DNA of 56,421 nt from Gammaproteobacteria bacterium (GTDB taxonomy: Bacteria > Pseudomonadota > Gammaproteobacteria > WFUO01): NCBI GenBank assembly GCA_015484945.1, contig WFUO01000024.1, forward strand, positions 1 to 56,421. Reading direction: 5' to 3'. The position numbers and the translations under genes are program-made. The notes beneath the pieces are model-generated. The model saw only the letters and a program-made list of their open reading frames with translations. It did no database searches and was not told where the DNA came from. Below, in pieces: positions 3,305 to 8,121 of the stretch. How positions within the stretch are numbered: position 1 is the first letter of the stretch; each line of letters begins with the position of its first letter.

Positions 3305-3961
3305 ATGTTCACCGGCATCATCGAGGCCATTGGCAGCATCACGGCGCTGGAACCGCACGGCGAGGACATGAGCCTGAGCATCGACACCGGCAAGCTCGAC
3401 ATGAGCGACGTGGCGCTCGGCGACAGCATCGCCGTCAGCGGCGTGTGCCTGACCGTGGTCGATCTTGATCCGCGCGGCTTTCGCGCCGACGTGTCGGGCG
3501 AGACCTTGCGGCGTACGATACTCGGCGATCTCGCGCCGGGCGATGCGGTCAACCTGGAAAAGGCCCTGACGCCGAGCACCCGTCTCGGCGGCCACCTGGT
3601 CAGCGGCCATGTCGATGGTGTCGGCAAGGTGGTCGAGCGTCGTGACGACGGCCGTTCGGTGCTGTTTCGTATCCAGGCACCGGACGGGCTGGCGCGTTAC
3701 ATCGCCGAGAAGGGCTCGATCTGCGTGGATGGCATCAGTCTCACAATCAATGCCGTGAGCGGCGCCGTGTTCGATCTCAACATCGTGCCGCATACCTTGC
3801 AGGAGACCACCATGGCCGGTTACGCGCCGGGCAGGCAGGTCAACCTAGAAGCTGATATCATAGCCCGTTACCTGGAACGCCTGCTGCTGGGCGAACGGGC
3901 GTCGGAGCCCGGCGCGGAAGGCGTCACGCTCGATACCCTGGCCCGCAACGGCTATTTGTGA
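3305..3961 (+). CDS. ribE: Riboflavin synthase alpha subunit
   Basis: Dismutates two molecules of 6,7-dimethyl-8-ribityllumazine to riboflavin and the pyrimidinedione recycled by RibH. The 218-residue protein begins with the invariant [10 protein letters not shown] and contains two internally similar lumazine-binding barrels, recognisable from the paired SGVCLTV (N half) and [10 protein letters not shown] (C half) segments. It lies 6 bases after ribD. The next gene has a possible GTG start overlapping its stop codon. Confidence 0.97.
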
Positions 3962-3975
3962 GACGCGAGACGGAC

Positions 3976-5088
3976 ATGCAACTGAACAGCATCGAAGAGA
4001 TCATCGAGGAGATCCGTCAGGGTCGCATGGTCATTATCATGGACGACGAGGATCGCGAGAACGAAGGCGATCTGCTGATGGCCGCCTCCATGGTCAAGCC
4101 CGACGACATCAATTTCATGGCGCGTTACGGGCGCGGGCTGATCTGCCTCACGCTCACGCGCGAGCGTTGCGAGCAGTTGCGCCTGCCGCTCATGGTGGAC
4201 GACAACGCCAGCCCGCATTCGACCAATTTCACTGTCTCGATAGAGGCCGCCGAGGGCGTGACCACCGGTATCTCTGCCGCCGACCGCGCGCGCACCGTGC
4301 AAGCCGCCGTGGCCCCGGACGCCAAACCCGACGATGTCGTGCAGCCGGGGCACATCTTCCCGCTCATGGCCCAGCCCGGCGGTGTGCTCAATCGCGCAGG
4401 TCACACCGAGGCGGGCTGTGACCTGGCGCGCATGGCCGGGCTGGAGCCTGCCGCGGTGATCGTCGAGATCCTCAACGAGGACGGCAGCATGGCGCGGCGC
4501 CCGGACCTGGAGAAATTCGCCCGTGAGCACGGCCTCAAGATCGGCACCATCGAGGACCTGATCCGCTACCGGGTCGAGAACGAGACCTCGATCGAACGCG
4601 TGGCCGAATGCCATCTCGACACCGAGTTCGGCGAGTTCCGCATGGTCACCTATCTCGATCACATCGACAACGAACTACACCTGGCGCTGGTCAGGGGGCG
4701 CATCGATCCGGAGCGGCCAACCCTGGTGCGTGTGCACCTGCAAAACACCCTGTGCGATCTGCTCAACACCGTGCGCAAGGATTGCGGCTGGCCGCTACGC
4801 AGCGCCATGCAGCGTATCGCCGAGGAAGGCGAGGGTGTGGTGGTGCTGCTGCGCAAGCACGAGGACAACTCGGAATTGTTGCGCCGCATCCGGTCCTTCC
4901 AGTTCGCCGATGGCCAGGCACGCGAGAAGAGCAGCGGTGAAAAGCAGGCTACCGAACTGCGCACCTTCGGTGTCGGCGCCCAGATCATCAGCGACCTGGG
5001 TGTGCGCAAGATGCGCGTGCTGAGCGCGCCCAAGATCATGCACGGCCTGTCCGGTTTCGGGCTCGAGGTCGTGGAATATGTTTCCTGA
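3976..5088 (+). CDS. ribB: DHBP synthase with degenerate cyclohydrolase II domain (RibBX type)
   Basis: The N-terminal half (about residues 1-200) is 3,4-dihydroxy-2-butanone-4-phosphate synthase, with [10 protein letters not shown] at 23-32 and HTEAGCD further on. It makes the four-carbon precursor for RibH from ribulose 5-phosphate. The C-terminal half aligns with GTP cyclohydrolase II but lacks its key residues. Of the three zinc cysteines in the expected C-x-TGD...RCDCG region only one remains (here NTLCD...RKDCG), and the GTP-contacting RQEGRGIG segment is replaced by [10 protein letters not shown]. This is the pattern described for proteobacterial RibBX. The first step of the pathway must then be supplied by a RibA elsewhere. 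A GTG at 3958 overlapping the ribE stop is an alternative start; 370 residues from the ATG fits the family. Confidence 0.9.
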
Positions 5089-5104: not shown

Positions 5105-5581
5105 ATGAGTACAATCAAAACCATCGAGGGCCAGTTCATGGCCGTTAATGCGCGCTTCGCCATCGTCGTGGCCCGCTTCAACAGTTTCGTCGTCGAAAGC
5201 CTGCTCTCAGGTGCCATCGACACGCTGACGCGTCATGGCGTAAAGGAAGCCGACATCCAGGTCGTGCGCGTGCCGGGTGCCTTCGAGATCCCGCTGCTGG
5301 TCAAGAAGCTGGCCGCATCCGGCAACCACGATGCCATCATTGCACTGGGTGCGGTGATCCGGGGAGGCACGCCCCATTTCGACTATGTTGCCGGAGAATG
5401 CAGCAAGGGACTGGCCAGCCTGTCGCTGGAATACGGCATCCCGATCGGCAACGGTGTGCTCACCGTCAACACTATCGAGCAGGCCATCGAACGCAGCGGC
5501 ACCAAGGCCGGCAACAAGGGTGCCGAGGCCGCCATGTCGGCGCTGGAGATGGTCAGCCTGTTGCGCAACCTGGATGTCTGA
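5105..5581 (+). CDS. ribH: 6,7-dimethyl-8-ribityllumazine synthase
   Basis: Condenses the RibD product with the butanone phosphate made by RibB. The 158-residue protein has the family's [14 protein letters not shown]-terminal loop, the PGAFEIPL strand, the [14 protein letters not shown] phosphate-binding loop and NGVLT. The family assembles as pentamers or icosahedral capsids in the cytoplasm. It is 16 bases downstream of ribB and 4 bases upstream of the chosen nusB start, so it is clearly part of the rib transcript. Confidence 0.97.
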
Positions 5582-5585
5582 CCGC

Positions 5586-6035
5586 ATGAATAAACCGCCG
5601 CGTGGACTGAATCCGGCCCACGCCCGCCGCCGTGCGCGGCGTTTCGCCATGCAGGCCCTGTACCAGTGGCAGCTCTCCGGGCAGAACCTCAACGACATCG
5701 AGGCCCAGTACCGCGAGGAACCGGACATGGCCAGGGCCGATGTTGACTACTTCAGCGAACTGCTACACCGGATACCGGCCAGTATCGACGAGCTGGACAG
5801 TGAATATGCCGGGCTGGCCGGACGCGAGACCGAAGAGATCGACCCCATTGAGCTGGCCCTGCTGCGTATCGCCACCTACGAGTTCAAGTACCACATCGAG
5901 ATCCCCTACAAGGTCGTCATTCATGAGGCCGTGCAACTGGCCAAGACCTTCGGTGCCAACGAAGCCTACAAGTTCGTCAACGGCGTGCTTGACAGCCTTG
6001 CGCGGCGCCTGCGCAAGATCGAGACCGGCGGTTGA
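5586..6035 (+). CDS. nusB: Transcription antitermination factor NusB
   Basis: RNA-binding subunit of the NusB-NusE (S10) antitermination complex acting on rRNA boxA. The 149-residue all-helical protein shows RRRARRFAMQALYQWQL at its N-terminus and VIHEAVQLAKTF and FVNGVLD near the C-terminus, all family hallmarks. An in-frame ATG at 5574, overlapping the end of ribH, is an alternative start. The usual downstream partner thiL is displaced by about 670 bases of repeat-bearing sequence here. Confidence 0.96.
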   Translation: MNKPPRGLNPAHARRRARRFAMQALYQWQLSGQNLNDIEAQYREEPDMARADVDYFSELLHRIPASIDELDSEYAGLAGRETEEIDPIELALLRIATYEFKYHIEIPYKVVIHEAVQLAKTFGANEAYKFVNGVLDSLARRLRKIETGG

Positions 6036-6057: not shown

Positions 6058-6235
6058 TGCGGCAACGCAGAGTTCGCAAAGGCGCTTGAATACAGAGACA
6101 AGTGAAAAGATAAAAGATACAAGTTGGGTGGCCCGGGGAAGGCGAGCCGTCATCGTACAACCGGATTCAGCACCCAGGCCTATGAACCACAGCTCCCTCT
6201 GCGTCCTTGGCCCCCTTCGCGCGCTTTGCGTTGAA
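6058..6235. repeat. Inverted pair of gcagag/gcaaag intergenic repeats
   Basis: A plus-strand stretch around 6060-6084 (GCAACGCAGAG then CGCAAAGGCGC) is matched in inverse orientation around 6193-6235 (CTCTGCG then CGCTTTGCGTTG). Between them is an AAGATAAAAGAT tract that recurs near 53782-53800. Similar elements occur at 26756-26794, 27306-27352 and 55858-55888. No gene is visible in 6036-6286. Confidence 0.55.
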
Positions 6236-6286
6236 ACCATGCCGCTGGCAAGTGACACGCCAACGACACCTTGGATCATCAACCTG

Positions 6287-6580
6287 TCATTGTGATTGCG
6301 TGTCGTTGTCATGCTCTTTGACAGCAGGCCTGCCGAAGCGCCGTTTCCACCACAGGCAAAGCGGGCGCAGGAAGGTGGGCAGGACGCACATGTTGATGAT
6401 CTCTTCCCGCAGGCGTTGTTTTTCGGCCTGGCGGCGGTCACGGCCCGAGCGGCGTTCGTGAAAACCGCGCCTGCCAACGCGGCGCCGTTCGATGCCATTC
6501 GGGGGCGGCAGGTTCTGCATACGCCGATCAACGCCACTGCGGCGGTCCACGCCGCTGCGCCGGTTGACCGGGTTGCGCAC
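6287..6580 (-). CDS. Small arginine-rich repeat protein (hypothetical)
   Basis: A 97-residue minus-strand frame starting at a GTG. Its first 60 residues are a basic repeat built on RRSGVDRR, RRSGVDRR, GIERRRVGRR and RRSGRDRRQ, followed by a short helical segment. Small RRSGxDRR proteins of this style are widespread in proteobacterial genomes and have no assigned function; that is recollection, not a search result. The repeats are clean at the protein level and a stop codon closes the frame upstream. No strong ribosome-binding site is seen. It lies between nusB and thiL on the opposite strand, an unusual interruption. The C-terminal 35 residues are less convincing as coding. Confidence 0.45.
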   Translation of the reverse strand: MRNPVNRRSGVDRRSGVDRRMQNLPPPNGIERRRVGRRGFHERRSGRDRRQAEKQRLREEIINMCVLPTFLRPLCLWWKRRFGRPAVKEHDNDTQSQ

Positions 6581-6709
6581 CCTGCCTGGGTTGTCGTCAC
6601 TGGTGGAAATGTGTCGTTCCCCATTGCCAGCCTGATCTTACCCAAGCATAGTGCCGGCATTTGTTGCGTCAACTGTTCAGGTGCGGGTGAATGCGTTAGG
6701 CTAGTTTTC

Positions 6710-7627
6710 ATGTTTTCTGATTCCGCCATGCCGCTGCCCGCCGTTGCCGCGAACCATGACCTGGTCGAGACCGTCGATACCCTCAACGCCGGGATACATT
6801 TTCGTGCCGGTATTGATGCGGCCGATCTGGCGCACAAGGCGGTGGCCGTCAATCTCAGTGACCTGGCCGCCATGGGTGCCGATCCGCTGGCGGTCAGCGT
6901 CATTATCCGGCATCCGCCGGCATGGACTGCGGAGATACCGCGTTTCAGCGAGCGTCTCGAAGCGCTTGCCGGGGAACTGGGATTTACGGTTCTGCGCTTG
7001 CAGACCGTAGTTGGTCCGTTGTCGGTGACACTGCAGGCCTGGGGTCAGGTGCCGTGCGGCGAGGCGCTGAGACGCGCTGGCGCACGCCCCGGTGATCGGA
7101 TCTATGTCAGTGGCTGGCCGGGTGAGGCCGGGATGGCCCTGGGCCTGACTGAACAGCGGCCGGCTCATGTTGGGGATACCGATTATGCCTACCTGCTCGG
7201 GCGACTGGACCGGCCGCAGCCACGCCTGGCGCTGGGACGGGCCTTGCGTGGTCTGGCCTCGGCCTGTATCGACGTTTCGGATGGACTGGCGGCGGATCTC
7301 GGTCATGTGCTCGAGCGCAGCGGCACAGGCGCCGAGTTGGCGCTTGAACGATTGCCGGTTTCAACGGTTCTGCGTCGTTGCGCGCGTGACGAGGCGCAGG
7401 CCCTGTCACTGGCGCTCGGGGCGGGTGACGATTACGAATTGTGTTTCACGCTGCCGCCGGCTCATGAGCAGGCGCTTGCCGACCGTTTGCACGACATCGA
7501 CGTGCCGTGTGCCTGCATCGGTACGGTGACGTCCAGCCCCGGCCTGCGCCTGTTGCGGCCTGATGGCACAGAGCTGCATCTGTCACATGCCGGCTACCGG
7601 CATTTCACCATGCAGGAGGACACATGA
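6710..7627 (+). CDS. thiL: ThiL-like protein, thiamine-phosphate kinase with altered motifs
   Basis: By family, ThiL phosphorylates thiamine monophosphate to the diphosphate cofactor. From about residue 18 this protein matches well: VDTLNAGIHF, the VNLSDLAAMGADP motif, IDVSDGLAADLGH and ALGAGDDYELCF. Two elements are abnormal. The N-terminal GEF-LI segment is missing and the GDDA metal motif reads SDSA. The GGDTTRG motif in mid-protein reads RLQTVVG and is one residue shorter. The frame stays open upstream to 6296, but that part does not resemble ThiL. Product length is 305 residues. The stop overlaps the pgpA start (ATGA). It may be a diverged enzyme or one that has lost activity. Family assignment is firm, function is not. 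Confidence 0.8.
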   Translation: MFSDSAMPLPAVAANHDLVETVDTLNAGIHFRAGIDAADLAHKAVAVNLSDLAAMGADPLAVSVIIRHPPAWTAEIPRFSERLEALAGELGFTVLRLQTVVGPLSVTLQAWGQVPCGEALRRAGARPGDRIYVSGWPGEAGMALGLTEQRPAHVGDTDYAYLLGRLDRPQPRLALGRALRGLASACIDVSDGLAADLGHVLERSGTGAELALERLPVSTVLRRCARDEAQALSLALGAGDDYELCFTLPPAHEQALADRLHDIDVPCACIGTVTSSPGLRLLRPDGTELHLSHAGYRHFTMQEDT

Positions 7628-8121
7628 AACGCAACCGTTTGCCGGCCACGGTCTGGCGTAGCCCCGTGCACCTGTTGTCCATCGGGCTGGGCAGTGGGGC
7701 GATGCCGTTTGCGCCGGGTACTTTCGGTACCCTGGCGGCAGTGCCGCTGTATCTTGTCATGCAGCCCATGTCGCTGGCGTGGTATCTGCTGGTGGTGTTG
7801 CTGTTGTTTATCGCCGGCGTCTGGTTGTGTGGCGAGACGGCCCGCCATCTCGGTGTACACGACCACGGCGGCATCGTCTGGGACGAGGTGGTCGGTTATC
7901 TGCTGACCATGACACTGGCACCGCCAGGCTGGATCTGGGTGGCGCTGGGCTTCGTTCTGTTCCGGCTGTTCGATATCGTCAAACCGTGGCCGATACGCCA
8001 GTTCGATCGCAGGCTGGTTGGCGGTTTCGGGATCATGTTCGACGATGTGTTGGCGGGTGTCTATGCACTGGTGAGTCTATACTTGTTGCAGTGGTCGGGT
8101 CTGGTTTCCGGCCCGGGATGA
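7624..8121 (+). CDS. pgpA: Phosphatidylglycerophosphatase A
   Basis: Inner-membrane phosphatase that removes the phosphate from phosphatidylglycerophosphate to yield phosphatidylglycerol. The 165-residue protein has three to four hydrophobic segments (about 18-35, 40-62, 90-115, 135-155), the GSGAMPFAPGTFGT motif near residue 23, the DHGGIVWDEVVG motif with its acidic residues, and RLFDIVKPWPI. It overlaps the thiL stop by 4 bases, so expression is probably coupled, as in the common nusB-thiL-pgpA order. Confidence 0.95.
   Translation: MKRNRLPATVWRSPVHLLSIGLGSGAMPFAPGTFGTLAAVPLYLVMQPMSLAWYLLVVLLLFIAGVWLCGETARHLGVHDHGGIVWDEVVGYLLTMTLAPPGWIWVALGFVLFRLFDIVKPWPIRQFDRRLVGGFGIMFDDVLAGVYALVSLYLLQWSGLVSGPG

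Follow-up and report, generated by a model that had tools for sequence, protein, structure and literature searches.

The window analysed here, a stretch of 56,421 nucleotides from a gammaproteobacterial genome (G000; 1.81 Mb in 65 contigs, 76% complete and the sole genome of its order in the comparison set), carries the gene order ribBA-ribH-nusB-thiL-pgpA (Table 1). The thiL gene, termed thiL-A below, begins with the ATG at 6710, ends with the stop codon at 7625-7627 and encodes 305 amino acids in a frame that is open throughout and shows no shift. Against TIGR01379 (curated cut-off 184.15), its translation from 6722 onwards gives 245.1 bits and so passes as ThiL, as the first-pass annotation of the sequence had held. 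The match covers profile positions 33-320 of 320 and starts near residue 13 of 305, past the GEF-LI and GDDA positions.

Table 1. Genes and motifs at the thiL-A locus and the partner gene thiL-B. Residue numbers are those of PaThiL.
Feature	Position	Strand	Remarks
ribBA	3958-5088		5' of ribH and nusB
ribH	5105-5581		5' of nusB
nusB	5586..6035	+	upstream neighbour of thiL-A
97-aa ORF	6287-6580	-	between nusB and thiL-A
thiL-A	6710..7627	+	putative TMP-half subunit, 305 aa; ThiL fold predicted without helix a1 and strands b1-b2
N-terminal stretch MFSDSAMPLPAVA	6710..6748	+	in place of GEF-LI ... GDDA; ATP-side elements lost
VDTLNAGIHF	6773..6802	+	TMP/metal side, carries Asp47 and His54; kept
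NLSDLAAMGA	6851..6880	+	carries Asp75; kept
RLQTVVG	6995..7015	+	instead of GGDTTRG; Gly121 and Asp122 (ATP side) lost
DVSDGL	7271..7288	+	carries Asp211, Ser213 and Asp214; kept
GDDYELCF	7424..7447	+	near-invariant C-domain motif; kept
pgpA	7624..8121	+	downstream neighbour; start overlaps thiL-A stop
thiL-B	contig C59:3164-3583 (locus L193 3164-3583)	+	139 aa; same genome, outside the window

We compared thiL-A with 109 ThiL relatives (29 + 80 loci), a set that contains duplicates, L014 and L049 being from the same genome and L005 and L054 near-identical. The alignment bore out the earlier observation that the GEF-LI/GDDA region has been lost, with GEF-LI absent and SDSA at the GDDA position, and likewise that residues 96-102 read RLQTVVG in place of GGDTTRG with the aspartate gone; among the relatives, each of the two glycines of this block is found in 106/109 and the Asp in 102/109, with Asn in 5. 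Where 90% or more of these 109 sequences agree, thiL-A deviates in the GGD block, at Trp75 (Glu) and Gly82 (Arg), and, near the N-terminus, at E, F, I, two G and a single D. Apart from these and four conservative swaps (positions 45, 64, 66 and 94), all other such columns are kept. Judged alone as a member of the ThiL family, thiL-A possesses the TMP-side residues and lacks the GDD loop, the EFxLI helix and the GGDT motif. Three of the 109 relatives (L022, L023 and L069) are similarly devoid of both ATP-side motifs.

The frame upstream of thiL-A is open from 6296, and AGECVRLVF indeed lies directly 5' of the start as had been noticed; nothing, however, links it to the GEF-LI segment of which it had seemed reminiscent. 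The opening back to 6296 may come from the antisense of the 97-aa minus-strand ORF, which carries RRSGxDRR-like repeats and has no match in Pfam (E <= 1) or NCBIfam (E <= 0.001). Two weak pairs of inverted repeats were detected between nusB and thiL-A, neither of which accounts for the N-terminal change. As the RLQTVVG block equals GGDTTRG in length, the internal deletion conceived at first pass is not needed, and losses like those of thiL-A recur in 11 other genomes.

The check for a second thiL, suggested along with the first description of the locus, led to thiL-B, a complementary gene on another contig of G000. Its product is no more than an N-terminal domain, in which EFSLI, IGDDA and VGGDTTRG are all preserved but the motifs of the TMP side are missing. 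A search of G000 with thiL-A (E <= 10) matched the query itself alone and yielded no second canonical thiL; it also missed thiL-B, for which the B protein of locus L069 or the whole-family model was needed. A canonical thiL may still sit in the missing part of this genome. Further matches to the ThiL model in G000 were a 357-aa protein on contig C35 (86.6 bits), which we take to resemble SelD, and C35:60559-60930 (33.6 bits).

Locus L069 belongs to a gammaproteobacterial MAG (isolate CS4-K024; G056) and holds a second ThiL-like frame at 6143-7060, in which GEFALI, GIGDDGAV and VGGDTTRG are present and VDT/GVHF and NLSD are absent. With this B protein and TIGR01379 as queries, a second, complementary gene was identified in 4/4 genomes searched (G000, G001, G043 and G056), all of which were first recognised by their degenerate A only, and A was found in 4/4 genomes picked for a short ThiL frame or for the genus of such a genome (G099, G111, G228 and G327). 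In total, A was present in 12 genomes, B in 11 and both in 11, and B accompanies 10 of the 11 other genomes that share the losses of thiL-A. In the genus of G043 the pair occurs in three of four genomes, the fourth (G370, 79% complete) having A without a recognised B, and in the family of G001 it occurs in two of three, with neither gene recognised in the third, G270. This last genome (90% complete, 580 contigs) has thiE, and thiL-A, thiL-B and canonical ThiL were all unrecognised in it. Other genomes bearing the pair are 100% (G043) or 99% (G111, G228 and G327) complete.

Across 369 genomes of the class, a sample outside which G056 lies, the B profile scored the six first-known short B proteins at 165-205 bits and canonical ThiL at no more than 133 bits. 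Among the matches listed, each genome gave one match (E <= 1e-24), either canonical ThiL or B and never both, and at least 10 of the 369 genomes carry B. The lower short-frame rows of this search pointed to G099, G111 and G228, and a shared genus to G327. In a phylum sample (n=398), 39 genomes matched at E <= 1e-36, a threshold at which weaker B would be missed, and a short frame appeared in G000 only. Two other short frames were rejected as B, that of G157 being canonical ThiL truncated where its contig stops and that of G057 canonical ThiL in two overlapping frames of 190 and 176 aa (L190 1441-2452), where a frameshift or a sequence error is possible. A 257-aa short-frame row of G344 lies near a contig start.

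Ten of the 11 B proteins are a lone N-terminal domain without the C-terminal AIRS_C domain, which is ruined in the B of G056. Against TIGR01379, the B of G000 (58.8 bits) and that of G056 (120 bits) both fall below the cut-off of 184.15. Judged alone as ThiL, B displays the GDD loop, the EFxLI helix and GGDT in 11/11 cases, and the AIRS_C domain and the TMP-side residues are wanting. The short B evolve fast. In the B of G099 (L211 1757-2221), the spacing between GDD and GGDT (SSTLLEGTDF) is nearer the canonical length than in other short B.

According to the report on PaThiL (PMC13254938), the enzyme has two equivalent sites at the dimer interface, each binding AMP-PNP through one protomer and TMP through its partner. 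The same text describes the nucleotide as served by Gly28, Gly121, Asp122, Thr123 and helix a1, Mg2 as held by Asp75' and Asp47', Mg3 by Asp30 with Asp75' and Asp211', and Ca1 as connecting Asp214' with TMP, and it assigns most of the dimer contact to the N-terminal domain, Met1-Pro139. The AbThiL study (PMC6416309) is concordant, with ATP/ADP on one molecule and TMP/TPP on the other. As solved ThiL splits ATP and TMP between protomers, B, which is about as long as the N-terminal domain, can be read as the ATP half and A as the TMP half. The AlphaFold2 model of G000 thiL-A (pLDDT 93.3) is a confident ThiL fold with PaThiL as its best PDB matches, and it begins with the VDT-bearing strand, by which helix a1 and strands b1-b2 are predicted to be missing. 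The model of the G056 B (pLDDT 88.1) has this helix, at 11-19, and ThiL as its best match, and a profile built from 11 B rows aligns with roughly the first 140 residues of solved ThiL.

To describe the division of the active site we used PaThiL residue numbers, those of the C-terminal domain being verified on the sequence of 8YKS. On the ATP side, the Glu, Phe and Ile of EFxLI, Gly28, Asp29 and Asp30, and Gly120, Gly121 and Asp122 are each present in 11/11 B; the corresponding counts in A are 0/12, 3/12 and 3/12 for EFxLI, 2/12, 2/12 and 4/12 for residues 28-30, where the loop alignment is uncertain, and 0/12, 0/12 and 5/12 for residues 120-122. The five A that retain Asp122 are the four of genus g44 and that of G099. 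Thr123 is found in 3/12 A and in 8/11 B, the other three B having Ser. On the TMP side, Asp47, His54, Asp75, Asp211, Ser213, Asp214, Asp219 and His222 are each kept in 12/12 A; in B, Asp47, His54, Asp211 and Ser213 occur in 1/11 each and Asp75, Asp214, Asp219 and His222 in 0/11. Ser45 is variable across the ThiL family. Taken together, A and B hold the complete set of tested ATP-side and TMP-side residues, as far as sequence tells. A complementarity test over all conserved N-domain columns gave p < 0.05 in 4/7 pairs at the 90% threshold and in 3/7 at 97%; at 90% the columns of the G000 pair comprised 7 that both proteins keep, 19 kept in A alone, 12 kept in B alone and 3 kept in neither (p = 0.0014), and the test was not significant in G043, G159 and G184.

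The rates of substitution, which had been proposed as a sign by which decay might be told, gave no such sign in the species pairs for which they could be measured. With YN00, dN/dS was 0.188/1.103 for A and 0.296/1.501 for B between G043 and G184, 0.177/2.179 and 0.249/1.207 between G111 and G228, and 0.176/0.928 and 0.225/0.946 between G111 and G327. The measurable species pairs come from two genera other than the lineage of the window, the remaining pairs having no YN00 value or NG86 estimates near saturation; in these two genera, both A and B are under purifying selection, dN being well below dS.

The surroundings of B are of two kinds. In 7/7 loci (G000, G099, G043, G184, G291, G159 and G001) it is convergent with a DAHP synthase gene, whose products share 71-77% identity with that of G000, and a Sel1-repeat gene lies past the DAHP synthase in six of the seven, the G159 piece ending before that point. 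The second kind, A-pgpA-lytic transglycosylase (SLT)-B-mutH, is seen in 4/4 genomes (G056, G111, G228 and G327). The B profile and its neighbourhood are conserved over five coded families plus G056. Besides, thiE was above its cut-off in eight of the nine genomes tested, including G000 and G270, and was not found in the ninth, G370.

We consider it most probable, at about 0.85, that A and B form a heterodimer with a single TMP-kinase site, which would have arisen by reciprocal decay of a duplicated thiL. This reading draws on the division of residues among the 12 A and 11 B, the arrangement of ATP and TMP in the PaThiL and AbThiL dimers, the recovery of the partner gene in 4/4 genomes starting from either A or B, the single match per genome listed in the class search, the stable neighbourhoods, the constraint on both genes in two genera, the presence of thiE and the ThiL fold predicted for A. 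In canonical ThiL, identical subunits pair chiefly via their N-terminal domains, and the ATP and the TMP of each site are bound by different protomers. Where thiL is present as the two complementary copies, A, in which helix a1, the GDD loop and the GGDTTRG motif are gone, would supply the C-terminal domain together with the TMP site, and B, an N-terminal domain alone, would supply the ATP-side parts, its TMP-side acids being lost. Pairing of A with B through their N-terminal domains would leave one working site per heterodimer, at which TMP would receive the gamma-phosphate of ATP and become TPP; the pseudo-site on the opposite side would be dead, and neither subunit would probably suffice alone. 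The presence of Asp122 in 5/12 A, the alignment of an Asp at position 30 in 4/12 A and the case of G370, with no recognised B, weigh against this heterodimer. So do the complementarity test, significant in no more than 4/7 pairs, the lack of either recognised gene in G270 despite its thiE, the incompleteness of G000, the fast evolution of short B and the discordance of the A and B trees over G000. Of the changed job that the first-pass annotation had offered as one option, what stands is the sharing of the work with an ATP-half protein in the same genome; the job itself, that of a TMP kinase, is likely to be unchanged.

The retention of the entire TMP side and of a confident ThiL fold, together with the Asp122 that persists in five A, would also suit an A that is active as a homodimer and binds ATP via other residues, B being either regulatory or some unrelated protein that binds nucleotides. 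We regard this as unlikely, since Gly120, Gly121 and the Glu of EFxLI are missing from all 12 A, the G000 A is predicted to be without the helix and strands that bear the ATP loop, and precisely the residues lost from A are those kept in 11/11 B. Somewhat less likely again is the dying gene proposed at first pass, that is, an inactive ThiL in organisms for which the step is dispensable through uptake of TPP, or because thiamine is made and then pyrophosphorylated, with B as a relic. The loss of motifs in A fits such decay, whereas the eight TMP-side residues in 12/12 A, the six ATP-side residues in 11/11 B, the low dN of both genes in the two measured genera, the thiE of eight of nine genomes and the conservation of the B profile and neighbourhood do not.

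The fragmentation and incompleteness of the G000 assembly might invite the reading, raised earlier for this locus, that the RLQTVVG block and the absent N-terminus are sequencing or assembly errors. This is hardly credible, as the thiL-A frame is open and unshifted and like losses were found in the 11 other genomes, several of them nearly complete and 10 with the partner gene.

A tree of eight A with 61 of the 106 canonical rows required three changes, and the test for a single clade did not reject it (AU p = 0.211); with 12 A and 45 of the 106 rows five changes were needed and the starred branches force at least two, the AU test again not rejecting a single origin (p = 0.16). The branches of the B tree (7 B) are very long and the tree carries little weight; it places genus g44 nearest to G000, whereas both A trees place G056 there. 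The A tree, like the existence of two kinds of neighbourhood, speaks for more than a single history. On balance we lean, by a little over even odds in view of the AU results and of the conflict between A and B trees over G000, to the view that homodimeric ThiL gave rise more than once in Gammaproteobacteria to an obligate heterodimer with one composite site, divided on every occasion along the same line between an ATP half and a TMP half. G056, whose B retains a ruined C-domain, would then stand midway and the other lineages would have shed that domain. G099 may be a younger case of the split, judging from its longer GDD-GGDT stretch and from an A that still has Asp at position 122.

The product of ThiL is the active form of vitamin B1. 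In the AbThiL paper, ThiL is cited as essential in A. baumannii (PMC6416309). A natural two-gene ThiL with an apparently halfway lineage would offer a testable case of the passage from a symmetric enzyme to an obligate heterodimer. It also carries a warning for annotation, as A scores above the ThiL cut-off and B below it, by which a pipeline would call ThiL normal or broken and miss the partner. Among the papers listed in searches of one open-access library, whose scope excludes subscription journals and preprints, none dealt with a ThiL that is split or heterodimeric.

The fold common to A and B is that of ThiL (TIGR01379), as solved for PaThiL (8YKS/8YKU), AbThiL (5CC8/5DD7/5CM7), SmThiL (6XEP), MfThiL (3MCQ) and AaThiL (3C9R-U). 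The likeness extends to the usual thiL operon place of A and to the joint coverage of all tested ATP- and TMP-side residues. However, solved ThiL are homodimers with two equivalent sites, whereas here the halves of the site lie in two genes and B is a lone N-terminal domain in 10/11 genomes. PurL appears as a fold match in the structure comparisons of both the A and the G056 B models. This FGAM synthetase of the AIRS superfamily is built with two-fold AIRS symmetry, and of its two symmetry-related sites one works and the other does not; PurL is a pseudo-dimer in a single chain that catalyses another reaction, whereas A-B would be two chains. NAD-dependent isocitrate dehydrogenase is a heteromer made from a homomer by complementary loss, with duplicated subunits that became specialised. 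A and B would likewise be duplicated subunits with separate roles in a heteromer but, unlike in that enzyme, the line between them separates the halves of a common site that serve the two substrates, and one of the subunits has lost a whole domain.
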